Positions 30,528 to 56,918 of a DNA stretch of 64,000 bases are shown piece after piece. The stretch comes from Streptococcus suis (GTDB taxonomy: Bacteria; Bacillota; Bacilli; Lactobacillales; Streptococcaceae). Position 1 is the stretch's first letter, and the number at the start of each line of letters is the position of its first letter. The notes beneath the pieces were generated by a model. The model saw only the letters and a list, made by a program, of their open reading frames with translations, made no database searches and was not told the DNA's origin. Location: assembly GCF_902702775.1 (NCBI RefSeq), contig NZ_LR738724.1:1240001-1304000 (forward strand). The letters run 5' to 3'. The position numbers and the translations under genes are program-made.

Positions 30528-31850
30528 TTAACGCAAGCCTAACTCAGCCAAGCGCTGCTGGTATTTTTCAAAATCAACACGAAGAGCCATACCACCATAC
30601 ATATCATAGTCGTCAATCCAGTCTCCATTTTCTGGGATTGTAACACGTTCGATACCATTTGCCGCATCCAATAGAAGGCCTGGTCCCTGTAGCCACATAA
30701 AGCTTTGTGGCACTGTTGTCGGAGTCATCGCCACAACCTTACCTATAGCTTCGGAGCCAGAGAATAGTTTCATTGGATTTTTAGCCTGTGTCATAACAGC
30801 AGATAACACTTCCTGTTGACGTCTCGTACGACCAAAATCACCTTCATCATCCGAACGATAGCGCGCGTAGTTAAGCAAGGTCTTACCATCCATCTGCTGT
30901 ACACCGACCTGAATCGTTTGATAAGCAGGAGCATTTTCTTCCAGCTGTAAATCATTCGGCACTTCTACTGAGCTAACGACTTCACCATTAATAGTTGAAA
31001 ACTGTGCATCAATCGTTACACCCTCAGGGAAAAGTGTATCAATCGTTGTCGCAAAGGTTGCAAAATCCACCATCGCATAGTACTTGACATCGATGTCAAA
31101 ATTATTCTTCAACGCCTTCCGAACTTCTTCAGCCCCTTGCTGATTATCCTGTTCTCCCAAAGTATAGGCAGTATTGAGTTTATATTCATATCCCTCAATA
31201 TCCACCAAGGTATCCCGCATAAAGCTAACAAGTTTGATTTTGTTATCCGTGTTATTCACATTTAGAACCATGATGGTATCCGTTCGAGTTTCACCTGAGC
31301 TTTCGCCAACACGACCGTCTGTTCCCAAAATTAAAATATTTGTCCCATTCGATGTATCTACGCCGTTGAAGACCTCAGCTACTGGCTTCTCACTCACGCT
31401 ATTCATACCTTTGAAAAAACTATAGCCCATCGCTACAATCACTAGCGCTATAGCAAGCAATACGAAACCAATAAGGCGCTTGAAACCACCCTTTTTACGA
31501 GCTTTTTTAGGTTTAGGTACTTTCGCTTTGGGCTCGATACGAGGAGACTGAAACCGTTGAGGTTTGGTTTGTCTTGCTTTTCTGGATCTACGTTCAGGAT
31601 AGCGAGGCAACAGTTCCTCTTGCTCATCATCCTCTTCAAAATAATCTTCCTCGAAGTCATCTTCGTAAGCCGTTGGTGTGAAGCTACGTAGAGATTGCCT
31701 TGGACTTCCATGCCGTTCTCTCAGCTCTTTTTTATATAATAGATAATCCAACTCACGACTTTCTTTGTCATTTAAGTAGTGGATATTTTTTTGCAAATAA
31801 TCTAACCTCAATTGTTCATGATGGGTTAGGATATTATTGTTTTTATTCAT
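30528..31850 (-). CDS. LytR-CpsA-Psr (LCP) family cell-wall glycopolymer ligase
   Basis: A 440-residue membrane protein. A long charged cytoplasmic N-terminus (about 145 residues, with acidic and basic clusters) is followed by one membrane helix (LIGFVLLAIALVIVAMGYSF) and an extracellular LCP domain: ILGTDGR, TRTDTIMVLNVN, MRDTLVDIEGYEYKLNTAY, later LNYARYRSDDEGDFGRTRRQ. LCP enzymes attach anionic or rhamnose polymers to peptidoglycan. It lies at the end of the aroA-aroK-pheA operon, the same place as psr in pneumococci. AGGATGAAGACAG precedes the ATG. Confidence 0.93.
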   Translation of the reverse strand: MNKNNNILTHHEQLRLDYLQKNIHYLNDKESRELDYLLYKKELRERHGSPRQSLRSFTPTAYEDDFEEDYFEEDDEQEELLPRYPERRSRKARQTKPQRFQSPRIEPKAKVPKPKKARKKGGFKRLIGFVLLAIALVIVAMGYSFFKGMNSVSEKPVAEVFNGVDTSNGTNILILGTDGRVGESSGETRTDTIMVLNVNNTDNKIKLVSFMRDTLVDIEGYEYKLNTAYTLGEQDNQQGAEEVRKALKNNFDIDVKYYAMVDFATFATTIDTLFPEGVTIDAQFSTINGEVVSSVEVPNDLQLEENAPAYQTIQVGVQQMDGKTLLNYARYRSDDEGDFGRTRRQQEVLSAVMTQAKNPMKLFSGSEAIGKVVAMTPTTVPQSFMWLQGPGLLLDAANGIERVTIPENGDWIDDYDMYGGMALRVDFEKYQQRLAELGLR

Positions 31851-31861
31851 CTGTCTTCATC

Positions 31862-32689
31862 CTAGCTGGTCATATAGACCAGGTAATTCCCTAGTACTTT
31901 ATAGGTTATGTCTAAACTAGTCAATTCTTTTTGAGAATAGGCTAATAATTCCTCAGACTGATTATCAAGATCCAGTATGAAAAAATACTCACCCAAAGCC
32001 GTTTTCAGGGGTCGGCTTTCTATTTTTGTTAAGCTGATTCCTCTCCATGAGAAAACAGACATGGCCTTATACAAGGCTCCTGGCAGGTTATCTGGCAATG
32101 TCAGTGCAAGACTGACTTTTTTAGCTACTTGTTCCAGTGCAATAGACGGAGCCTTATCCCCCAAAATCCAAAAGCGTGTAAAATTCTCGCTAATTTCCTG
32201 GATGTCTTGCGCAATTACCTCCAGTCCATATTCAACTGCTGCCGCTTGCGGAGCAATTGCCGCGAATGGTTGTTCAGGGTGTTCTGCCACAAAGCGAGCA
32301 GCATAGGCTGTACTAGCTGTTATTTCAATACGAGCCTGAGGAAAATGTTCCTGAATATATTTCTTCCCCTGAGCAATTGCCTGCGGATGAGAATAGATAA
32401 CCTCTACAGCTTTATCGGCACTCGTGGCTAACAGTTGTTGGGCAATCGGTTGAACAATCTCTGCAACCGCATGAATCTCCGCCTGATGAAAGAGATAGTC
32501 AATCGTTTCATGAACACTACCTTCAATCGAGTTCTCTACTGGAATAACGGAATAGGTAACTTCCCCCGTTTCGTAGGCCTTGATAACCTCTGTAATCGTT
32601 TCAAAAGCCTGCAAATCCGCAGTCGGAAAGGCCTGCTGGGCCACTTGATGTGTAAAAGAACCACGAGGTCCTAGATAGGCTACTTGCAT
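31862..32689 (-). CDS. pheA: Prephenate dehydratase
   Basis: A 275-residue monofunctional enzyme converting prephenate to phenylpyruvate for phenylalanine synthesis. The catalytic domain starts VAYLGPRGSFTHQVA, with SVIPVENSIEGSV near 50 and the catalytic NFTRFWILG near 168. An ACT domain (NLPGALYKAMSVFSWRGISL then TKIESRP) follows for feedback inhibition by Phe. Its ATG overlaps the end of aroK by ten bases. No chorismate mutase domain is fused. Confidence 0.95.
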   Translation of the reverse strand: MQVAYLGPRGSFTHQVAQQAFPTADLQAFETITEVIKAYETGEVTYSVIPVENSIEGSVHETIDYLFHQAEIHAVAEIVQPIAQQLLATSADKAVEVIYSHPQAIAQGKKYIQEHFPQARIEITASTAYAARFVAEHPEQPFAAIAPQAAAVEYGLEVIAQDIQEISENFTRFWILGDKAPSIALEQVAKKVSLALTLPDNLPGALYKAMSVFSWRGISLTKIESRPLKTALGEYFFILDLDNQSEELLAYSQKELTSLDITYKVLGNYLVYMTS

Positions 32690-33171
32690 AAAATTTTCCT
32701 TACTACTTGTTCTGGATTCAGTTTATCTGTATCGATTACAGTATCGGCTAAACCTTGATAAAGTGCCATTCGTTCACGATAAAGGGCTTCAAACTCTTCC
32801 TTACTACACTGTAAAAAGAGAGGTCTTTGCGACTGTCTATCCTTACGAATTCTCTGATAGGAAACTTCAAAGGAGGCAGTAAGAAGTACATTGTCCTCCC
32901 TATTTGCCAACAGCAATTTCCTGTTTACTTCAGATTTAATCACACCACCACCAGTTGACACGATACAATTACTAGGTAAGTCCAGCAATTCTTTCAACAC
33001 CTCTGTCTCCAGTTGTCTAAACGAAGCCTCTCCTTCAAGACTGAAATAGTCAGCAATAGGCATACCAATCCGTTCTTCAATGATATGGTCCATATCGTAA
33101 ACGGGGAGATTTAACAAATGTGCTGTTGTTGTTTTTCCAACTCCCATAAATCCAAGTAAAACGATTGGCAT
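32680..33171 (-). CDS. aroK: Shikimate kinase
   Basis: A 163-residue P-loop kinase that phosphorylates shikimate at the 3-hydroxyl. Walker A is GFMGVGKTT (residues 7-15), the shikimate-binding YDMDHIIE and GEASFRQLE follow, then STGGGVI, and the lid arginines are in RQSQRPLF. It follows aroA by eight bases with AGGAGA as ribosome binding site, in the leftward aroA-aroK-pheA operon. Confidence 0.95.
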   Translation of the reverse strand: MPIVLLGFMGVGKTTTAHLLNLPVYDMDHIIEERIGMPIADYFSLEGEASFRQLETEVLKELLDLPSNCIVSTGGGVIKSEVNRKLLLANREDNVLLTASFEVSYQRIRKDRQSQRPLFLQCSKEEFEALYRERMALYQGLADTVIDTDKLNPEQVVRKILCK

Positions 33172-33179
33172 ACATTCTC

Positions 33180-34646
<1,467 letters not shown>

Positions 34647-34701
34647 TTACTGTAAATTTCACACAAAATCATGAATATTGGTTTTAAATTCTTAAAAATA
34701 A

Positions 34702-34710
34702 TGGTATAAT
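34702..34710 (+). promoter_or_regulatory. Extended -10 promoter of the DAHP synthase genes
   Basis: TGGTATAAT carries a TG-extended -10; no good -35 is found at 17 bases. The predicted start lies about 10 bases before the ATG at 34725. Confidence 0.6.
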
Positions 34711-34742
34711 TGAGAAATCTATAAATGAAAGAGGAAGACCTA

Positions 34743-35762
34743 TTGTTTACACCAATCAGCGAAAAAATTGACATCAATCAAGTACGAGAACATTCAAAAC
34801 TTTCTCCAGAAACACTTGCTAAAAAACAAGCTCGTGACCGTGAACTTGAAGCTATCTTAAAAGGTGAAGATGATCGTCTTCTCCTAGTAATTGGGCCATG
34901 TTCTTCTGACAATGAAGAGGCTGTCTTAGATTATGCTCACCGCTTGGCCAAGCTCCAAGAAGAGGTCAAAGATAAAATTTTCATGGTCATGCGCGTCTAT
35001 ACTGCCAAGCCACGTACCAATGGTGATGGTTATAAAGGACTCATGCACCAACCAGATACAGATGCTGCACCAAGCCTCATCAACGGAATCAAAGCAGTTC
35101 GTAACCTCCACTATCGTGTCATTACGGAAACAGGTTTAACTACTGCTGACGAGATGCTCTATCCTGAAAACCTGCCTTTGGTTGATGACTTGGTTTCCTA
35201 CATCGCTATCGGAGCTCGTTCGGTTGAAAATCAGCAGCACCGCTTTGTAGCGTCAGGCATCGATGTTCCAACAGGCTTGAAAAATCCAACATCTGGTAAC
35301 CTCAAAGTCATGTTCAACGGTCTTTTTGCTGCTCAGAAGAAGCAATCCTTCCTCTTCAACAATACTGAAGTTGAAACATCTGGCAATCCACTTGCTCACG
35401 TTATCCTTCGTGGCGCAGTCAATGAAAATGGTAAATACCTACCAAACTATTACTATGATAATCTTCTAGAAACCATTGAGCTCTATGACCAATTTGGCTT
35501 GAAAAATCCATTTATTATTATCGATACCAACCATGACAATTCTGGGAAAAATTATTTGGAACAAATCCGTATCGTCCGTCAAACCTTAATCAACCGTGAC
35601 TGGAACGAATCCATTCGTAACTACGTTCGCGGCTTCATGATTGAATCCTACATTGAAGACGGTCGCCAAGACAATCCAGATGTCTATGGAAAATCCATCA
35701 CAGACCCTTGCTTAGGCTGGGAAAAAACACAAGAACTCATCCGAGAAATTTACAACAGATAG
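34743..35762 (+). CDS. DAHP synthase, copy 1
   Basis: A 339-residue class I (AroFGH-type) 3-deoxy-D-arabino-heptulosonate-7-phosphate synthase, first step of the shikimate pathway. Motifs: LLVIGPCSSDN near residue 45, MRVYTAKPRTN, GARSVENQQHRFVASG, and IIDTNHDNSGKNY (metal and phosphate ligands). The TTG at 34743 is preferred because GAGGAAGACCTA lies just upstream; an in-frame ATG six codons earlier (34725) would have no ribosome binding site. It is a tandem paralogue of the next gene. Confidence 0.92.
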   Translation: MFTPISEKIDINQVREHSKLSPETLAKKQARDRELEAILKGEDDRLLLVIGPCSSDNEEAVLDYAHRLAKLQEEVKDKIFMVMRVYTAKPRTNGDGYKGLMHQPDTDAAPSLINGIKAVRNLHYRVITETGLTTADEMLYPENLPLVDDLVSYIAIGARSVENQQHRFVASGIDVPTGLKNPTSGNLKVMFNGLFAAQKKQSFLFNNTEVETSGNPLAHVILRGAVNENGKYLPNYYYDNLLETIELYDQFGLKNPFIIIDTNHDNSGKNYLEQIRIVRQTLINRDWNESIRNYVRGFMIESYIEDGRQDNPDVYGKSITDPCLGWEKTQELIREIYNR

Positions 35763-35771
35763 GAAAATACT

Positions 35772-36797
35772 ATGGGAATCCACAAACGTAGCACCAGTTT
35801 AGACATTGATAAAGTAAAGGAACTTTCCAAGTTAGAAGGAGAATTTCTAGCTGCAAAAAATCAGCGCGATGAAGAACTGAAAAGAATTATCCGAGGTGAA
35901 GATGACCGTCTGCTCTTGGTTATCGGCCCTTGCTCATCAGATAATGAAGAGGCCGTTCTAGAATATGCACGTCGTCTCTCTAAGCTTCAAGAGGAAGTCA
36001 AAGATAAAATCTTCATGGTCATGCGGGTTTACACAGCTAAACCACGTACCAATGGGGAAGGCTATAAAGGACTGGTTCATCAGCCAGATACTTCTAAATT
36101 ACCAGACCTCATTAACGGAATTGCAGCCGTTCGTAATTTGCATTACCGTGTCATTACTGAGACCGGACTCACAACTGCTGATGAAATGCTCTACTCTGCC
36201 AACTACCCTCTTGTGGAAGACTTGGTGTCCTACCATGCTATCGGAGCACGTTCGGTTGAAGACCAAGAACACAGATTTGTTGCATCAGGTGTCGATATGC
36301 CAACTGGTATGAAAAACCCAACTTCTGGTAATTTGACCGTTATGTTCAATGCTATCTACGCCGCACAAAACAAACAGAACTTTATTTACCGCGATGCAGA
36401 AGTTGATACAGATGGCAACCCTCTAGCTCATGCTATCCTTCGTGGTGCCAATACTGAAAAGGGCGGTTATGAGCCAAACTACTACTATGATATTCTCTTG
36501 AAAACCATCAAACAGTATGAACAATTTGGTCTTAAAAATCCATTTATCGTAATTGATACCAACCACGACAATTCTGGTAAAAACTACCTGGAACAAATCC
36601 GTATCGTCCGTCAGACCCTCATCAACCGTGATTGGAATGAATCCATTCGCAAATATGTCCGTGGTTTCATGATTGAATCCTACTTAGAAGACGGCCGTCA
36701 AGATAGCCCTGAGGTATTCGGCAAATCCATTACCGATCCTTGCTTAGGTTGGGAAAAAACGGAAGCTCTGATTCGTGAAATTCATCAAACTGTCTAA
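35772..36797 (+). CDS. DAHP synthase, copy 2
   Basis: A 341-residue paralogue of the preceding gene with the same active-site motifs and very long shared stretches (for example from KNPF to RIVRQTLINRDWNESIR). The N-terminal 30 residues differ most, which is where feedback specificity often differs. Tandem pairs of this type occur in other streptococci and may respond to different aromatic amino acids. AGGAAAATACT precedes the ATG. aroE and aroB follow. Confidence 0.92.
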   Translation: MGIHKRSTSLDIDKVKELSKLEGEFLAAKNQRDEELKRIIRGEDDRLLLVIGPCSSDNEEAVLEYARRLSKLQEEVKDKIFMVMRVYTAKPRTNGEGYKGLVHQPDTSKLPDLINGIAAVRNLHYRVITETGLTTADEMLYSANYPLVEDLVSYHAIGARSVEDQEHRFVASGVDMPTGMKNPTSGNLTVMFNAIYAAQNKQNFIYRDAEVDTDGNPLAHAILRGANTEKGGYEPNYYYDILLKTIKQYEQFGLKNPFIVIDTNHDNSGKNYLEQIRIVRQTLINRDWNESIRKYVRGFMIESYLEDGRQDSPEVFGKSITDPCLGWEKTEALIREIHQTV

Positions 36798-36842
36798 TTC
36801 TTTCCTTAATTTTTTATAGGATAAATAATTTGGAGGTAAGCT

Positions 36843-37712
36843 ATGAACATTGATGGTTACACTCGTCTTGCTGCCGTTGTTGCAAAGCCAATCAAACACT
36901 CCATTTCCCCCTTCATTCATAATCTGGCTTTTAAGGAAACAGGGGTAAACGGTGTCTATGTCGCTTTGGAAATTCCAGAAGAGGATTTGGCTGCTACTCT
37001 TGAAAATATCAAACGCTACGATATGTTTGGCATCAATCTTTCCATGCCCTATAAACAAGCTGTCATTCCTTATCTAGATGATTTAACAGCCTCTGCACGC
37101 CTGATTGGCGCTGTCAATACTGTCATTCATCAGAACGGCTTACTAATCGGTCACAATACCGATGGCATTGGATTCTTCAAAAGTTTAGAAAAACTAAGAA
37201 GATTCCAAGTACGCAACAAGCGACTGACCATTCTAGGTGGTGGTGGTGCTTCTACTGCTATCATAGCTCAGGCTACATTGGATGGTGCAAAGGAAATTAC
37301 TATTTTCTGCCGCCAACAAAGCTTGGAAAGAACACAGGCGAGTCTTACACCTATTGCTCAAGCAACTGGAGTTCCTATGCAGGTCCTAGCGCTCGAAGAT
37401 AGCCAATTACTACAGGAACATATTACCAACTCCGACTTACTAGTCAACGGAACCAGTGTAGGCATGGATGGGTATTCTCAACCTGTTCCTTCTACCATTC
37501 GCTTTCCTGAAAATCTTTTGGTTGCGGATGTGATCTATCAACCATTCGAAACACCTTTATTAAAACTAGCCCAATCTCAAGGCAATCCAACTATCAATGG
37601 TTTGGGCATGCTCCTTTTCCAAGCGGCTGAAGCATTCCAAACCTGGACTGGTAAGGAAATGCCGACTGACTTGATTTGGGACCAATTAGTCCAGAAATAC
37701 GACATCAAATAG
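36843..37712 (+). CDS. aroE: Shikimate dehydrogenase
   Basis: A 289-residue NADPH-dependent enzyme reducing 3-dehydroshikimate. Substrate motifs [10 protein letters not shown] and [10 protein letters not shown] (catalytic Lys) and GAVNTV are followed by HNTDGIGF, then the nucleotide-binding [10 protein letters not shown]. It has a GGAGGTAAGCT ribosome binding site. Third gene of the rightward DAHP synthase-aroE-aroB operon. Confidence 0.95.
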
Positions 37713-37724
37713 AGAGGAAATCTG

Positions 37725-38792
37725 ATGAAACTGACCGTCAATCTTCCCAACACTCCCTACGACATCCTTATCCAAAGAGGAAGTTTAGCACAGACAGGTG
37801 CATGGGTCAAAGAACTTTGGAAACCTCAGAAAATCGCCATTATTACAGATGACCACGTTGGCTCACTCTACCGTGAAACAGTCCAGTCAAGCTTAGAACA
37901 AGCTGGTTTTGAAACCATTGCTTTTGAATTTCCAGAAGGTGAAGCCTCAAAAAATCTTGATACCGTCAACCAGGCCTACGAATTTCTCGTAAAAAATGGT
38001 ATGACACGAAGTGATGGAATCATTGCTCTCGGCGGAGGAGTCGTTGGCGATTTGGCAGGTTTTGTCGCTTCTACCTATATGCGTGGTATCCATTTCCTAC
38101 AAATCCCAACCAGCCTAACTGCCCAAGTCGATTCTTCTATCGGGGGAAAAACTGGCGTGAACACCCCATTTGCCAAAAATATGGTGGGGACCTTCTGCCA
38201 ACCAGACGGCGTTCTCATCGACCCTGATACCCTCAAAACACTCGGCAAACGAGAATTGATTGAAGGAATGGGCGAGGTTGTCAAATATGGCTTAATAGAT
38301 GATGTGGAGCTCTGGGAAACCCTAGACCAATTAGACGGCTCTGTCGAGAGCATTCTGGAGCATGCTGACTATATCGTCTACCACTCCTGTGAAGTCAAAC
38401 GCAAGGTTGTTGTCGAAGATGAATTAGACAACGGTGTCAGACTCTACCTCAACTTCGGTCACACGATTGGACATGCTATTGAAGCGACCGCTGGCTACGG
38501 CCAGGTCATGCACGGTGAAGCTGTTGCTATCGGTATGGTACAAATCTCACGCGCAGCTGAGAAAAAAGGACTGATGCCAGCTGGTATGACAGAAAAGATT
38601 ATCGCCATGTGTGAAAAATTCGGCTTGCCGACTACACACCAACCTTGGAATGTAGATGAATTATACGCCGCCCTAACTCACGATAAAAAAGCACGTGGCA
38701 AGACCATCAAACTCGTCATCGTCCCTCAATCGGGACAGGCTGCCATCCATCAAATTCCAATGGAAGAAATGCTAGAATTTCTACAAGTATAG
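37725..38792 (+). CDS. aroB: 3-dehydroquinate synthase
   Basis: A 355-residue NAD- and zinc-dependent enzyme cyclising DAHP to 3-dehydroquinate. Motifs: [29 protein letters not shown], the [20 protein letters not shown] segment, metal ligands in GEVVKYGLI and [10 protein letters not shown], and the later [21 protein letters not shown] precedes the ATG. Last gene of the rightward block; a BOX-like repeat and a terminator follow. Confidence 0.95.
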
Positions 38793-39145
38793 TCTTTTAG
38801 TTCACATCAAAAGCCGCAGGTATAACTCAATGCTTTCTTGTTTCTAGGCGACCAGCTGATGTACTTCGCTTTTTTGTTCTCAGGCTCAGGTACGAATAGT
38901 CCACTGGACTATTCGTATCCCCCAGATTGCTTGCACAGTTAATGGACTGTGCAAGGTGGGAGATAAAAGAGCGAAGCAAGTCGCTTTTGCAAAATCAGGC
39001 AAGGCGAGTTCAAACAATCCAGTAGAGTGTTTGAAGTTGGAAATAAGGAAATGGAGTTTCCTCTTACGTCGAAGTAATAAAAGTCAACTAAATGACGAGA
39101 TAAGAAAAATGACTACTGATTCAAAATCATCAGTAGTCTTATTTT
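38793..39145. repeat. BOX-like intergenic repeat plus terminator
   Basis: From about 38808 to 39040 is a repeat-like mosaic: agccgcaggtataactcaat, then a perfect 11-base palindrome with three-base loop (38892-38916), then TTGCACAGT/ACTGTGCAA (38931-38954), then gcaaggtgggagataaaagag and gcaaaatcaggcaaggcgag. Much of it recurs at 43298-43448. The end holds a bidirectional hairpin GACTACTGAT/ATCAGTAGTC (39111-39138) with T tracts on both strands, which ends aroB rightward and the ABC operon leftward. Confidence 0.7.
39111..39145. terminator. Bidirectional terminator between aroB and the ABC transporter
   Basis: Ten-base stem GACTACTGAT (39111-39120) with ATCAGTAGTC (39129-39138); followed by TTATTTTTT rightward and ATTTTTC leftward. 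Confidence 0.85.
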
Positions 39146-39946
39146 TTATAAAATCATCTCATCGTCAGTTAGCTTTTCACCACTGTTTTTGTAGAAAAGG
39201 TCCATCAAGTTTTGAACGGTCAAGTTCTTCTTCTCTTCTCCTTCTACATCGACAACAATCTGACCACGGTGCAACATGACCAAACGATTACCATATTCAA
39301 TGGCGTTTTCCATATTATGCGTAATCATCAGAGCTGTCAACTGGTGACTCTCGACAATCTTCTTGGTCAATTCCATGACCATATCGCTAGTTTTGGGATC
39401 AAGGGCTGCAGTGTGTTCGTCCAAGAGTAGAACCTTTGGTTTAACCAGCGAAGCCATCATCAATGTCAAGGCCTGACGTTGACCACCTGAAAGAAATTGC
39501 GTGTCAACCTTCATACGGTTTTCTAGTCCCAGACCAAGCTCTTTCAAGGCTTCCTTAAAAATAGCACGTTCACTATCCTTAACACCCCAGCCAAGACCAC
39601 GTGACAATCCACGACGATAGGCAATAGCCATGTTTTCTTCAATGGTCAAGCGGGAAGCTGTTCCCATCTTAGGATCTTGGAAGACACGGCTGATGTCCTT
39701 AGAACGTTTGGCTGCTGAGACATGCTTAATGGATTTACCTTCAAGCAAAATATCGCCCGAATCAACCGTCAAGGCACCTGCAAGTGAGTTCATGAAAGTT
39801 GATTTACCAGCACCATTACCACCGATAATGGAGATAAAATCACCCTCTTTTACATCTAAGTTCAACCCACGAAGGACATGGTTCTCATTAACTGTTCCAG
39901 CTTCGAAGGTTTTATGAATATTTTGAATTGATAAAATTGTAGACAT
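39146..39946 (-). CDS. ABC transporter ATP-binding protein (TrpZ-like, COG1101 type)
   Basis: A 266-residue ATPase. Walker A GGNGAGKSTF near residue 42, ABC signature LSGGQRQALTLMMAS near 149, Walker B VLLLDEHTAALDP. It powers uptake through the adjacent permease. Together with the permease and the ABC substrate-binding proteins it forms the TrpXYZ-type system, linked in other Firmicutes to aromatic amino acid (tryptophan) regulation. Last gene of the leftward operon. Confidence 0.9.
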   Translation of the reverse strand: MSTILSIQNIHKTFEAGTVNENHVLRGLNLDVKEGDFISIIGGNGAGKSTFMNSLAGALTVDSGDILLEGKSIKHVSAAKRSKDISRVFQDPKMGTASRLTIEENMAIAYRRGLSRGLGWGVKDSERAIFKEALKELGLGLENRMKVDTQFLSGGQRQALTLMMASLVKPKVLLLDEHTAALDPKTSDMVMELTKKIVESHQLTALMITHNMENAIEYGNRLVMLHRGQIVVDVEGEEKKNLTVQNLMDLFYKNSGEKLTDDEMIL

Positions 39947-39958
39947 GACTTCCTCCTC

Positions 39959-40852
39959 CTAAGCATTTCCATTCAATTTTGGACGACGAATATTCAATTT
40001 CTTCTGCAATTCTGGCACATAGAGAACGGTTGCCAGAAGGATAGCTGAGAAGAGTTTAACAAGGTCTGCATCCATACCTGGAATTTCCAAAATCGCTAAG
40101 ATAATCAAACGGTAAACAACTGCACCGAGAACAACCGATAGGAGTCTCCAACCCAGGCGTAAGTTACGCAAGATAACTTCTGCAATAATGACAGATGCTA
40201 GACCGATAACAATGGTACCAGTACCTGAATTGAGATCTGCATAGCCATTATTCTGAGTAAGAAGAGCTCCACAAAGGGCAATTAGACCATTCGACAACAT
40301 ATAGCCGTAGATTTTCATATTATCTACATTGATACCGTTGGCCTCACTCATTGGAATGTTATCCCCTGTTGAACGAATGGCTAGACCAATTTGTGTATTG
40401 AGCAAGAGCGTCAATAGGCCCACAACTGCTAGTACAAAGACCAGACCAATGACCAAAACAGCATTGGTTTTTGTCAAACCGAAATCCTGCAATTGGGTCA
40501 CCAGTGTTTCTTGTTTGAGCAGGGCTACGTTGGCCTTATCCAAAATTTTCAAGTTGATGGAGTAGAGTCCCGTCAAGGTTACAATACCGGTCAAAAGGGC
40601 TGGAATTTTTAGTTTTGTATGAAGTAAACCAGAAATCAATCCTGCACCCATACCAGCTACCATAGCCATAAAGGTTGCCAGCAAGGGATTCACTCCGTTC
40701 ACAATCCCTGTCGCACAAACAGCAGCTCCAAGCGGATAAGACCCCTCAGCTGTCATATCAGCAATATCTAAAATACGAAACGTCAAGTAAACACCAATCG
40801 CCATAACTGACCAAAGCAAGCCTTGCGAGATACTTGATAAAATAATATCCAC
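39959..40852 (-). CDS. ABC transporter permease (TrpY-like, COG4120 type)
   Basis: A 297-residue membrane protein with about eight hydrophobic segments, starting MDIILSSISQGLLWSVMAIG, related to branched-chain amino acid-type permeases (motif DIADMTAEGSYPLGAAV). It forms the channel of the importer. Twelve bases separate it from the ATPase gene; 55 from the preceding binding-protein gene. Confidence 0.9.
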   Translation of the reverse strand: MDIILSSISQGLLWSVMAIGVYLTFRILDIADMTAEGSYPLGAAVCATGIVNGVNPLLATFMAMVAGMGAGLISGLLHTKLKIPALLTGIVTLTGLYSINLKILDKANVALLKQETLVTQLQDFGLTKTNAVLVIGLVFVLAVVGLLTLLLNTQIGLAIRSTGDNIPMSEANGINVDNMKIYGYMLSNGLIALCGALLTQNNGYADLNSGTGTIVIGLASVIIAEVILRNLRLGWRLLSVVLGAVVYRLIILAILEIPGMDADLVKLFSAILLATVLYVPELQKKLNIRRPKLNGNA

Positions 40853-40907: not shown

Positions 40908-41882
40908 TTATTCAGATACAGCAAGCTTAGAAGTATCGATACCTAATTTCTGAGCCATTTCTTCATTAACGTGAAGACTGACGGTCTCTGGGTATTCTAC
41001 CGCTGTTTCTGACACATTGGCTCCTTCGATAATCTTAATAGCCATTTTTGCAGTTTGACGACCTAAAGCTTCATAGTTGGTACCGTAAGTCAAAAGACCT
41101 CCTTCATCCACCATGTCCGTTGAACCACCGATTACTGGAACCTTATGCTCCACAGATAATTCACCGATCATGGTCATGGTTGAAGCGACAGTATTGTCTG
41201 TTGGAATAAAGAGAGCATCTACATCCTTCATCAAACTTGTTGTAGCATCTTGTACTTCATTAGTCGAAGTGATTCCTTTTACCACTACCTTATAATCTGC
41301 TTTTTCTAGCAATTTCTTAGCTTGCTCTACCTGGACTTCTGAATTACGTTCGCTAGTAGTGTACAAAATACCAACTGTCTTAGCATCAGGAACAGCTTGT
41401 CCTAGCAATTCAACCTGTTTGTCAATTGGAGCTTGATCAGAAGTACCTGTCAACAGTCCACCTGGTTTTTCAATGGATTCTACCAAGTCAGCTGACAAGG
41501 GATCTGTAACCGCAGTAAAGACAATCGGCGTTTCAGTAGACACAGTCGCTAAACTCTGGGCAGACGGCGTAGCGATTGCCAAGACAATATCATTTCCATC
41601 GATTAATTGTTCTGAAATGGTTTGAAGGTTAGCTTGATCACCTTGGGCATTTTGATAATCCAAAACCAATTTTTCACCCTCTTTATAGCCATTTGCTTCT
41701 AATTCCGCCACAAAACCCTCACGGGCAGCTGTCAATGATTCATGCTCCATATATTGGAGAACTCCAACTTTGACCACATCTGAGGAAGCTTGTTCTGATG
41801 ATGAGGAACAAGCTGCAAGTGTTAGCAAACACATACTTGCTACTGAAATAGTTGCCAATTTTTTTACTAGCTTATAATACAT
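40908..41882 (-). CDS. ABC substrate-binding lipoprotein 2 (TrpX-like)
   Basis: A 324-residue secreted lipoprotein. The signal peptide ends in the lipobox LTLAAC (Cys25). The mature protein has the ABC_sub_bind fold of COG2984 (VKVGVLQYMEHESLTAAREG, PIVFTAVTDPLSADLVES, LFIPTDNTVASTM, PVIGGSTDMVDEGGLLTYGT). It is homologous to the next gene upstream along its whole length; two binding proteins for one permease suggests different ligands or affinities. Probable cargo: an aromatic amino acid or derivative (inference from operon family and leader). Confidence 0.9.
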   Translation of the reverse strand: MYYKLVKKLATISVASMCLLTLAACSSSSEQASSDVVKVGVLQYMEHESLTAAREGFVAELEANGYKEGEKLVLDYQNAQGDQANLQTISEQLIDGNDIVLAIATPSAQSLATVSTETPIVFTAVTDPLSADLVESIEKPGGLLTGTSDQAPIDKQVELLGQAVPDAKTVGILYTTSERNSEVQVEQAKKLLEKADYKVVVKGITSTNEVQDATTSLMKDVDALFIPTDNTVASTMTMIGELSVEHKVPVIGGSTDMVDEGGLLTYGTNYEALGRQTAKMAIKIIEGANVSETAVEYPETVSLHVNEEMAQKLGIDTSKLAVSE

Positions 41883-41905: not shown

Positions 41906-42865
41906 TTACTCTTCTAATGCTTTTATAGTCGCTGCATCAATACCAACAGCTTTAGCCATTTCTTCATTGACGGTAATAGCCGCTGTATTTGGTTTTTCAA
42001 CTGCTAAGTCAGCTGGCTTTTCACCCTTCAAAATCTTCACGGCCAATTCACCAGCTTGAACACCGATAGCATGGTAGTCGACACCGTAGGTAAATAGAGC
42101 TGCGTCAATAACTGCTGCGTCACTTCCCATAGCTGGAACTTTTGCTTCTTTTAAAATATCACCGATTGTTGAAGCTGTAGAGGCAACTGTGTTATCAGTT
42201 GGAAGATAGATAGCATCGACTTTTCCTGCAAGTGAAGTAATAGCTTGCTGAACATCGTTTGTCGTCGTGACAGTTGTCACTTCTACCTTTACACCTTTTG
42301 CTTCGAGTGCTTTTTTAGCCTGCTCAGCTTGAACCTCTGAGTTTACCTCGCTAGAATTGTAGAAAATACCGACAGTCTTCGCAGTTGGTACAACTTTGAG
42401 CAACATCTCGATTTGACCTTCCACATCAGTTGCATCAGTAGATCCTGTCATGGTCCCACCTGGTTTTTCCAATGATTCAACCAAACCTGCTTCAACTGGA
42501 TCTGTGACAGCTGTAAATACACTTGATGTTTCACTATCTGCATTAAGCATGGCTTGGGCTGCCGGTGTTGCGATGGCAAAGTTAAGATCATTTTTCCCTG
42601 CCAATTTCTCAACCATTGTCTGTAAGTTTGCTTGATCACCTTGGGCATTTTGCAAATCAATCGTCAGATTTTCACCTTCCTTGTAGCCTGCTTCTTCGAG
42701 TGCCTCTACAAAGCCTTCACGAGCTGAGGTCAATGCTTCATGTTCAGCATATTGAATAATACCAACATTGACTGAACTTGAATCTGACGAATTGGAACTG
42801 CATGCAGCAAGCGTTACTGCTGACAAAAGTGCCACTGAACTAAGTATAATTTTTTTAAATCCCAT
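41906..42865 (-). CDS. ABC substrate-binding lipoprotein 1 (TrpX-like)
   Basis: A 319-residue paralogue of the preceding entry. The lipobox is VTLAAC (Cys22) after a typical signal peptide. The same ligand-binding segments are seen (VNVGIIQYAEHEALTSAREG, SVFTAVTDPVEAGLVES, IYLPTDNTVASTAST, FTYGVDYHAIG). AAAGGAGAATAATC precedes the ATG. It is the first structural gene after a 340-base leader containing a candidate leader peptide and terminator. Confidence 0.9.
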   Translation of the reverse strand: MGFKKIILSSVALLSAVTLAACSSNSSDSSSVNVGIIQYAEHEALTSAREGFVEALEEAGYKEGENLTIDLQNAQGDQANLQTMVEKLAGKNDLNFAIATPAAQAMLNADSETSSVFTAVTDPVEAGLVESLEKPGGTMTGSTDATDVEGQIEMLLKVVPTAKTVGIFYNSSEVNSEVQAEQAKKALEAKGVKVEVTTVTTTNDVQQAITSLAGKVDAIYLPTDNTVASTASTIGDILKEAKVPAMGSDAAVIDAALFTYGVDYHAIGVQAGELAVKILKGEKPADLAVEKPNTAAITVNEEMAKAVGIDAATIKALEE

Positions 42866-42902
42866 GATTATTCTCCTTTTATAAATATAATTGCAAACAA
42901 GA

Positions 42903-42937
42903 AAGGACCGCTTAGACTACACTCTAAACGGTCCTTA
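42903..42937 (-). terminator. Attenuator terminator ahead of the TrpXYZ-like genes
   Basis: AAGGACCGTTTAGA pairs with TCTAAGCGGTCCTT (14-base stem with one G-T pair), leftward followed by TCTTGTTTG; it lies between the leader peptide and the structural genes. Confidence 0.8.
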
Positions 42938-43082
42938 TATTTCATCTGTATAGGAAAACAGAATGAATTATCCGTGCCATCTAGATGTATCATCTATGGG
43001 CACATGTCAAAATAGCTACAGCCACATAGATACAAACTTTACGTTCCCGTGTTTGCATCCATGTTTACCATGTCTACAAACA

Positions 43083-43145
43083 CTATCTAAAATAGCCGTA
43101 GAAATAAGTATGATTAGCTGAATGATTTTGACACATTTGTAACAT
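43083..43145 (-). CDS. Candidate leader peptide rich in Tyr and Phe
   Basis: Twenty codons from ATG at 43145: MLQMCQNHSANHT followed by YFYGYFR and a stop at 43083. Five of the last seven residues are aromatic (three Tyr, two Phe). AAAGGG lies eight bases upstream. The stop codon abuts the first leader hairpin. The design matches classical amino acid leader peptides such as pheL, where stalling on scarce aminoacyl-tRNAs prevents termination. Confidence 0.6.
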   Translation of the reverse strand: MLQMCQNHSANHTYFYGYFR

Positions 43146-43297
43146 CTCTGTTTCCCTTTCTCATTTATTTGTAACTATCATAACTGTTTTCAAATTATTT
43201 GTCAATAGGAAATTGCGTAAATTTTCAGATTTTTCAAGTTTTTTTGAATTTTTCTAAAAATAACCCCCTATATTATTAGCTATAAAACGATCTGTCA

Positions 43298-43448
43298 ACA
43301 GCCGCAGCTATAACTCAATTTCTAGCATTGACTTGAATCAGTCTCCTAGATTGCTTGCAAAGTAAATGAACTGTTCAAGGTGGGAGATATAAGAGCGGAG
43401 TGCAAAATCAGGTCAACGACGACTAATCTTGATTTTCGAAGGGTATAA
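43298..43448. repeat. BOX-like intergenic repeat, second copy
   Basis: It shares with 38808-39040 the words agccgcag-tataactcaat, cctagattgcttgca, tgttcaaggtgggagatataagagcg and gcaaaatcaggtcaacgac, and ends in cttgattttcgaagggtat, the end word of pneumococcal BOX elements. No gene is seen. Confidence 0.65.
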
Positions 43449-43465
43449 ATGACTATATTTGATGT

Positions 43466-43495
43466 CACAAAAAGGTCTGAACCTAAGCCCAGACC
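43466..43495 (-). terminator. Terminator of lacD
   Basis: Leftward GGTCTG/CAGACC stem (43474-43479 with 43490-43495) followed by TTTTTGTG. Confidence 0.75.
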
Positions 43496-43507
43496 CTACT
43501 AAAACAA

Positions 43508-46288: not shown

Positions 46289-47392
46289 CTAATCTAAATG
46301 AATTTTGTAAGTCGTCTGCTCTCTTAAACGTTTCGCAGCGTCTTCCAAATTTCCCTTGTTTTTAAACGTAATTTGTAAAATACCGTGTATATCTTCACGG
46401 TTCTCTTCATTGATACGAATATTGACAATGGAAATACCCCGTAAGACTTCCAAAACCTTCAAAATCGTATCTTCCTCATCAGGAACACTAAGGAATAAAT
46501 CGTAGAAAGAATCAACACCTGCACGCTTGTGAATTTCCATGGCTTTACGAGTTTGACGTCCCTTATCAAAAAAGTCCCAAATTGCTTCTTGATTGCCAGA
46601 TCTGAGCACATCTTAAATTTCTGAAAGACGTTCTTGAAATTCCTCGATTCGATTTAGAATAGAATCTGCATTGGTCAGCAAAATGCTAGTCCACATGCTC
46701 GGCTCACTTTCCGCAATCCGTGTCATGTCTCTAAATCCTCCAGCTGCAAAATTATTCGTAAAGGGATGTTCTTGCGCAAACTCTCCAGCTTGATGCATCA
46801 AACTAGAAGCCAATACGTGTGGAAAATGTGAAATTTGACTGGTCACACGGTCATGTTCTGCTGCATCAATCTGAACAAAACGTGCCCCCGTTCCAGATAA
46901 TAAATCTGTCAATCGGGGAACCGCATCCTGCTTGGTAGCCTGACACGGTGTCATAATGTAGTAAGCATTCTCAAATAGATAGAGATCTGCTGCACTGGCA
47001 CCAGATTTATGACTACCTGCCATAGGGTGGCCACCGATAAAATTAATTTGTCTTGGCGCCAAATGTTCCTCTGCAGCAGCCACAATTGCAGACTTCGTTG
47101 AACCTGCATCTGTAATCAAGACCGTATCCTTCAATTCAAGGGTACTAAATTCTTCAATTAAACGCAAAGAAACTTGAATTGGAACACAAAGAAGAATCAC
47201 ATCAGCCTGCTTTGCCACACCCTCCAATTCCGTTGACACCTCATCAACCATCCCCTTGCCCAAGGCAATTTGGCATGATTGTTCGTTAGGATCAAAGCCA
47301 ATGAGGTGATAGTCAGGATGGTCTTTGCGAATACAGAGCGCAAGTGAACTTCCAATCAACCCTAGACCTACAATTAAAATCGTTTTTTTCAT
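46289..47392 (-). pseudogene. tyrA: Prephenate dehydrogenase, split by an in-frame stop
   Basis: The dehydrogenase converts prephenate to 4-hydroxyphenylpyruvate for tyrosine. Residues 1-259 (47392 down to 46616) hold the whole catalytic part: GLGLIGSSLAL, AGSTKS, IGGHPMAGSHKSG, TSQISHFPH. A TAA at 46613-46615 then interrupts. The same frame continues DVLRSGNQEAIWDFFDKGRQ and includes a complete ACT domain (SVPDEEDTILKVLEVLRGIS to IHLD). Total length with one codon for the stop is 367, the usual length in streptococci. A GTG at 46609 could restart the ACT part but has no ribosome binding site. Either the enzyme is shortened and unregulated, or there is readthrough, or a sequencing error. Confidence 0.85.
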
Positions 47393-56762: not shown

Positions 56763-56790
56763 GGCTTTTCACCTCATTTTATATTTTTCG

Positions 56791-56918
56791 AGAAAAACGA
56801 AACGGACTTGCTAAACAAGTCCGCACTACACCATTATTCTTTCCGAAGAAATCTTAATCCGTAGAGCCAGACAACGTTAGTCGCAAGGCGAGAAGCTCTC
56901 ACTTCTGCTTTTCTCAAT
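56791..56918 (-). ncRNA. L20-type leader of infC-rpmI-rplT
   Basis: Leftward the leader carries AGTGAGAGCTTCTCGCCTTG, then ACTAACGTTGTCTGGCTCTA, then a terminator stem CGGACTTG/CAAGTCCG (56803-56823) with GTTTCGTTTTTCTC after it. This is the arrangement of the ribosomal L20 leader, in which L20 mimics its rRNA site on the mRNA and causes premature termination. Confidence 0.7.

Follow-up and report, generated by a model that had tools for sequence, protein, structure and literature searches.

The trp, pheA and his attenuators of enterobacteria combine a leader ORF enriched in codons for the regulated amino acid, competing hairpins and an intrinsic terminator ahead of the structural genes, and they are off unless the cell is starved. 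In Lactobacillales, amino-acid control is often described through T-boxes. Leader peptides have also been proposed in Gram-positive bacteria and their relatives: two reports propose them for His genes in Firmicutes (PMC2965389, PMC9413887), and a third describes uORFC-13-1, a Phe upstream ORF before aroF in Acholeplasma, from 24 Acholeplasma and environmental sequences (PMC8632094). Here we analyse a leader in Streptococcus suis, within a stretch of 64,000 nucleotides that we call the window, and its relatives in other genomes.

Leader ORF and competing helices upstream of the importer operon

The preliminary description of this locus reported a promoter, a 20-codon frame with its own ribosome binding site, a hairpin starting at the leader stop (A:B in our nomenclature), two mutually exclusive hairpins sharing CCATAGAT (C:D and D:E) and a 14-base terminator before the first structural gene, all preceding an ABC importer operon. 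Each of these elements was recovered (Table 1). The frame ends in YFYGYFR-stop and is followed by 180 bases of hairpins, the last of which is the terminator, and the first importer gene starts 37 bases past it. The fold of positions 42866-43175 has z = -7.48, with none of 100 shuffled sequences as stable. The leader of a named S. suis record is 99.0% identical to that of the window, and the gene table of this record, which describes itself as incomplete, has no entry over the leader. The statement that aromatic biosynthesis genes flank the locus holds in part: in the named record lacD and nagA adjoin the locus upstream, prephenate dehydrogenase and aroC lie beyond them, and aroB lies downstream on the other strand. 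In the window, an in-frame stop interrupts the prephenate dehydrogenase (tyrA) frame (46289-47392, minus strand), leaving parts of 259 and 106 residues; a longer, unsplit gene is annotated in the named record. The locus, together with aroC, prephenate dehydrogenase and aroB, lies at 31362-40667 of NZ_CP135066.1, an S. suis record of 51 kb that is listed as a plasmid but may be a chromosomal fragment.

Table 1. Positions of the leader elements and importer genes in the window
Feature	Position	Strand	Remarks
Promoter TTGACA-17-TATGAT	43177..43205	-	11/12 consensus matches; TTGACA 43205-43200, 17-base spacer, TATGAT 43182-43177
AAAGGG, Shine-Dalgarno-like	43154-43159	-	8 bases 5' of the leader ATG
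Leader ORF, 20 codons	43083..43145	-	MLQMCQNHSANHTYFYGYFR-stop; ATG 43145 to TAG 43083; from sequence; conserved in relatives
Segment 0 (3' end of leader ORF)	43084..43100	-	partner C; 15 pairs with 43032-43017; covariation
Segment A	43069..43082	-	partner B; hairpin A:B begins at the leader stop
Segment B	43050..43063	-	partners A or C
Segment C	43017..43037	-	partners 0, B or D
Segment D	42992..43003	-	partners C or E
Segment E	42974..42986	-	partner D, or F (antiterminator)
Terminator hairpin	42903..42936	-	14 pairs, T-rich tail; F 42934-42923, G 42916-42905
Importer binding protein 1 (PF04392)	41906..42865	-	domain match
Importer binding protein 2 (PF04392)	40908..41882	-	domain match
Importer permease (PF02653)	39959..40852	-	domain match
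Importer ATPase (PF00005)	39146..39946	-	domain match

We assembled a set of 224 distinct loci, excluding 16 duplicates and fetched repeats of loci already entered. Each leader was selected solely on its start codon, its match to a Shine-Dalgarno sequence and the position of its stop, irrespective of its residues, and was then classified by its last ten residues. An earlier rule that counted hydrophobic residues chose wrong frames (L169, L190) and was replaced. The rule gave no leader in six of the 224 loci, and the ORFs of L269 and L270 were entered by inspection. In L209, L210 and L277 the frame was located by the motif FSFF and runs past the usual stop, hence their class 'other'; these three leaders precede a gene of about 180 amino acids, possibly an unknown aromatic-pathway gene, whose product in L209 matches no Pfam or NCBIfam family. 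A Shine-Dalgarno match of at least 4 bases is present in 207 of the 223 leaders. Among the 128 non-redundant loci, 85 have a Phe/Tyr or mixed leader with the usual stop position, and in these codons -7, -6, -5, -3 and -2 specify Phe or Tyr in 77, 83, 84, 80 and 84 cases, respectively. The coding frame holds 4.85 aromatic residues out of 6 against 0.52 and 0.85 in the other two frames, and the aromatic share upstream of the last nine residues is 2.6%. Judging from this conservation, the leader is read as protein, with a ribosome binding site and a run of codons for the regulated amino acids as expected of an attenuator, which supports the attenuator reading first put forward from the letters of the window.

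The leader RNA can be divided into eight segments (0 and A to G) that form a domino-like chain of competing helices, the outcome of which is either the terminator F:G (off) or the antiterminator E:F (on). The link between hairpins and terminator, missing from the preliminary description, is provided by segment E, whose alternative partners are D and F, the 5' arm of the terminator hairpin. In an alignment of 66 non-redundant leaders (<85% identity), built from sequence alone, both sides have changed in 9 of 12 pairs of A:B, 4 of 11 of C:D, 6 of 12 of B:C, 6 of 9 of D:E, and 6 of 7 and 3 of 6 for 0:C, so that the paired bases indeed covary. For each of three structures, none of 500 shuffles, which ignore relatedness, reached any of five measures; 89-91% of cells pair as against 24-47% with the partner slid, although slid controls favour a structure derived from the consensus. 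The E:F duplex has a mean energy of -11.8 kcal/mol with the F of the same locus, compared with -7.4 for shuffled F and -8.1 for the F of other loci; E pairs more strongly with its own F than with the F arms of other loci in 108 of the 128 loci, and than with shuffled F in 115 of them. These energies indicate that E and F coevolve. A terminator was detected downstream of the leader in 217 of 223 loci, and the leader is thus predicted to have mutually exclusive folds that decide on an intrinsic terminator.

We then computed how the fold depends on the position of a ribosome, using equilibrium folding of a transcript that ends just past F, with a masked ribosome of assumed footprint. The first readout, in which F could pair with anything upstream, gave a weak peak (mean 0.57 at codon -7 versus 0.51 at the stop, 128 loci); the explicit E:F readout used below was adopted after this result was known. 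With the A-site at codons -14 to -9 of the window leader, 0:C, A:B and D:E form and the E:F probability is 0.00-0.07. It rises to 0.39 at Thr -8, then to 0.57 at Tyr -7, 0.62 at Phe -6 and 0.74 at Tyr -5, the three codons at which A:B and C:D form, and falls to 0.18-0.19 from Gly -4 to the stop, where B:C and D:E form, so that the RNA does not switch with the A-site on Tyr -3 or Phe -2. The ribosome-free RNA prefers B:C (0.97) and D:E, not 0:C, and is still off (E:F 0.18). Across 109 loci (the 128 minus 19 with a weak E:F duplex), mean E:F starts from 0.20 in the ribosome-free RNA, reaches 0.32-0.35 over codons -7 to -3 and is back at 0.21 with the ribosome at the stop; comparing stall with stop, E:F is higher by >0.02 in 47 loci, lower in 13 and changed by <=0.02 in 49. 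With footprints of +9 and +15 instead of +12, the plateau is equally high and lies about one codon to one side or the other. The peak is present in the 92 Phe/Tyr loci as a group, hardly visible in three Trp loci and absent from three mixed loci, and ten Ile/Leu/Val loci have at most a small one, at -9/-8. Hence, the position of a stalled ribosome switches the computed fold in the window and in the Phe/Tyr loci as a group.

From the sequence, its conservation, the covariation and the computed switching, we infer stalling, termination and a response to amino acids, and the leader is very probably a ribosome-mediated attenuator of transcription, with charged tRNA-Tyr and tRNA-Phe as its signal. 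While the ribosome is still early in the leader, segment 0 would pair with C around A:B, D:E and the terminator F:G would form, and the operon would be off. With Tyr and Phe plentiful, the ribosome would reach the stop codon and cover 0 and A, leaving B:C, D:E and again the terminator. When Tyr or Phe is scarce, it would stall on the Tyr-Phe-Tyr codons, covering 0 and leaving A free; A:B would then form, C would take D, E would take F, and the importer would be transcribed for want of a terminator.

The nascent peptide of TnaC arrests the ribosome near the stop codon, and the leader peptide could likewise arrest it there and sense the free amino acid, in place of codon-wise stalling. We consider this unlikely: an Arg residue directly precedes the stop in 177 of 223 leaders, across all three main classes, as such a mechanism might lead one to expect, but the Arg codon and stop (AGATAG) lie within segment 0 and pair with C, which is enough to explain their conservation, and the computed switching peaks over the aromatic codons rather than at the stop.

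Distribution of the leader and its relation to RF02863

By motif search, the leader is present in 35 of 40 related loci from named genomes. The other five (L024, L032, L034, L039 and L040) were left out, the contig of L034 beginning 138 bases upstream. In L040, from Oenococcus kitaharae, a small ORF ending in AWWWLG, with a sequence unlike the attenuator family, lies upstream of a PF04392 relative and is perhaps an independent Trp attenuator. In Enterococcus gallinarum, the named record has the ORF MKLLLSPQLNIAYFSYFR followed by a binding protein, a permease and an ATPase.

A permissive scan of positions 42800-43500 with Rfam models gave a match to RF02863 ('Enterococcus sRNA 2410') over 43099-42885, with 34.6 bits and an E-value of 6.7e-4, below the gathering cut-off of 61 bits; two further hits in the same scan had E-values of 0.31 and 1.9. 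At E <= 1e-3, RF02863 matches 158 of 295 sampled Lactobacillales genomes, 71 of them above the cut-off, and none of 14 control genomes. Our own model, R1, built from the 66 leaders under 85% identity, matches 181 of the 295 genomes at E <= 1e-5, many of which supplied model sequences; in the wider class it matches 35 of 398 genomes, five of these outside Lactobacillales. Among 46 sampled Streptococcus genomes, 12 have no R1 match. On the basis of the common leader, the helices and the joint model, the kinship of the window leader with RF02863 is clear.

RF02863 derives from a 195-nt E. faecium RNA, sRNA_2410, for which two transcripts are reported from RNA-seq and Northern blot (PMC5593968). 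Taken at its Rfam name, the window leader would thus be a trans-acting small RNA. The transcripts and the match fit such a role; however, a terminated leader would likewise appear as a short RNA and would explain sRNA_2410, and a trans-acting RNA would not need a leader ORF before nearly all examined loci, with codons that track the downstream gene on the same strand. We therefore regard a trans-acting role as very improbable. In L083, L112 and L206, a T-run follows hairpin D:E, which may thus be a terminator preceding F:G, a possible connection with the two sRNA_2410 transcripts. We found no prior description of the attenuator family in the open-access literature, most subscription papers lying outside that coverage, and term searches of a pneumococcal transcript map (PMC6296669) returned none either.

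Leader codons, downstream genes and the T-box

We grouped the downstream proteins by BLAST and compared 20 representatives with NCBIfam for gene names; the names pheA, LivJ-like, aminotransferase, DASS, BcaP-like, chorismate mutase domain and most of those given as TrpX-like fall below the curated cut-offs with tiny E-values. Leaders are of the Phe/Tyr class in all 37 aroE loci, all five pheA loci (two with Phe only, NTFFFSDFR), the three DAHP synthase loci that have a leader, one aroC locus (1/1) and one locus of a chorismate-mutase-domain protein (1/1). The fourth DAHP synthase locus, L151, retains the RNA helices and has no usable leader start codon; it is possibly a decayed attenuator. All 13 branched-chain loci (LivJ-like binding protein, 6; ilvA, 3; ilvE, 2; ilvB, 2) have Ile/Leu/Val leaders, L190 being ambiguous, as it is open both in an Ile frame with a GTG start and in a Tyr-rich one. 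Phe, Tyr and Trp codons occur together before one transketolase and three of four aminotransferases, and a POT-type symporter also has a mixed leader. The PF04392 importer group (n=146; L154 starts with the permease) comprises 134 Phe/Tyr leaders, nine Trp leaders (e.g., WQSWRR-stop), one mixed leader and two unclassed ones with a Trp. Five SBP3 proteins and two DASS carriers of unassigned substrate have Phe/Tyr leaders, as does a permease nearest to the branched-chain carrier BcaP (L204), a possible exception to the otherwise consistent match between leader codons and the amino acid of the downstream gene. The same scaffold recurs across Lactobacillales with Trp or Ile/Leu/Val codons before genes for those amino acids.

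A strong fold with conserved helices could also belong to a riboswitch whose conserved aptamer binds a ligand. This is highly improbable, as the same helices accompany leaders of the Phe/Tyr, Trp and Ile/Leu/Val classes and the conserved feature that varies with the downstream gene is the set of codons, a ligand core having been sought through Rfam only.

A quick tree was built from 87 binding proteins, after reduction at 78% identity with Trp rows retained first and with L205, L269 and L273 scored as Trp. It groups nine Trp rows with the T-box TrpX in a single clade (SH-aLRT 99.7) and shows one change of the leader-type label. Binding protein 1 of the window falls outside this clade; its best solved relative is 6hni/6hnj/6hnk (250.9 bits, with 194.5 bits for 3lft).

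That the leader is itself a T-box riboswitch binding uncharged tRNA, like that of S. suis trpX, for which a T-box and induction at low Trp are reported (PMC9382623), is scarcely credible and is refuted as far as Rfam's model can see. At E <= 1e-3 there are ten matches to the T-box model in the S. suis genome, one of them above the Rfam cut-off; the leader has none, either at gathering or at E up to 5, and the classical leader-peptide reading thus survives the T-box check proposed for it. At gathering, Rfam finds in the window only a ribosomal protein L20 leader (56788-56916, minus strand, 70.6 bits, above the cut-off). Roughly 240 bases upstream of the ATG of a third PF04392 gene in the genome, there is a weak T-box match (710402-710547; 31.1 bits). 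Since this T-box precedes another PF04392 paralogue, the published element fits that paralogue, and the third gene fits the published T-box trpX, when set against the description of trpX rather than the SSU1307 sequence. Near 710700, the stretch separating the weak T-box match from the trpX-like gene contains a conserved Trp-rich ORF with a Shine-Dalgarno sequence (L050, L282-L284), which reads MMKRWRWWNRVLKT, or MMKRWRWWDNILMT in two related genomes; it may encode a second Trp leader peptide. In L289, a trpB-like gene is preceded by a shorter version, MKRWRSN.

Returning to the attenuator, we think it probable that these leaders form an unrecognised, mainly Lactobacillales family in which one scaffold has its codons rewritten for each gene (Phe/Tyr, Trp, Ile/Leu/Val or mixed aromatics), that it is a second general amino-acid sensor beside the T-box, and that 'sRNA 2410' is its terminated leader. 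Its matches in 181 of 295 genomes suggest a testable control for aroE, DAHP synthase, pheA, ilv, liv and several importers and offer a cis-regulatory reading for an RNA family filed as a trans-acting sRNA. They would also be natural cases of one RNA switch moved between amino acids, which opens the rules of such change to direct testing.

Comparison with described systems

The closest entry is RF02863, whose best loci have a leader ORF ending in FSYFR-stop before a PF04392 importer and thus appear to be the same RNA as here; however, it is filed as a trans-acting sRNA gene, and the Rfam model begins within the ORF. The Firmicutes His leaders (PMC2965389, PMC9413887) are likewise predicted Gram-positive attenuators, but for another amino acid, and uORFC-13-1 (PMC8632094) is likewise a predicted leader-peptide attenuator from Gram-positive kin, but with another motif and in another group; we set both apart by their descriptions. 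Like the proposed attenuator, the T-box controls amino-acid genes of these bacteria by antitermination under starvation. However, it senses by direct tRNA binding, whereas the window leader, which has no T-box match, is predicted to sense through its translated leader. With the enterobacterial trp, pheA and his attenuators, to which we liken it by architecture, the window leader shares the sequence-level features and the working principle, but its chain is longer (0, A-G), the end of its ORF takes part in the pairing (0:C), and leaders for different amino acids have one scaffold in common.
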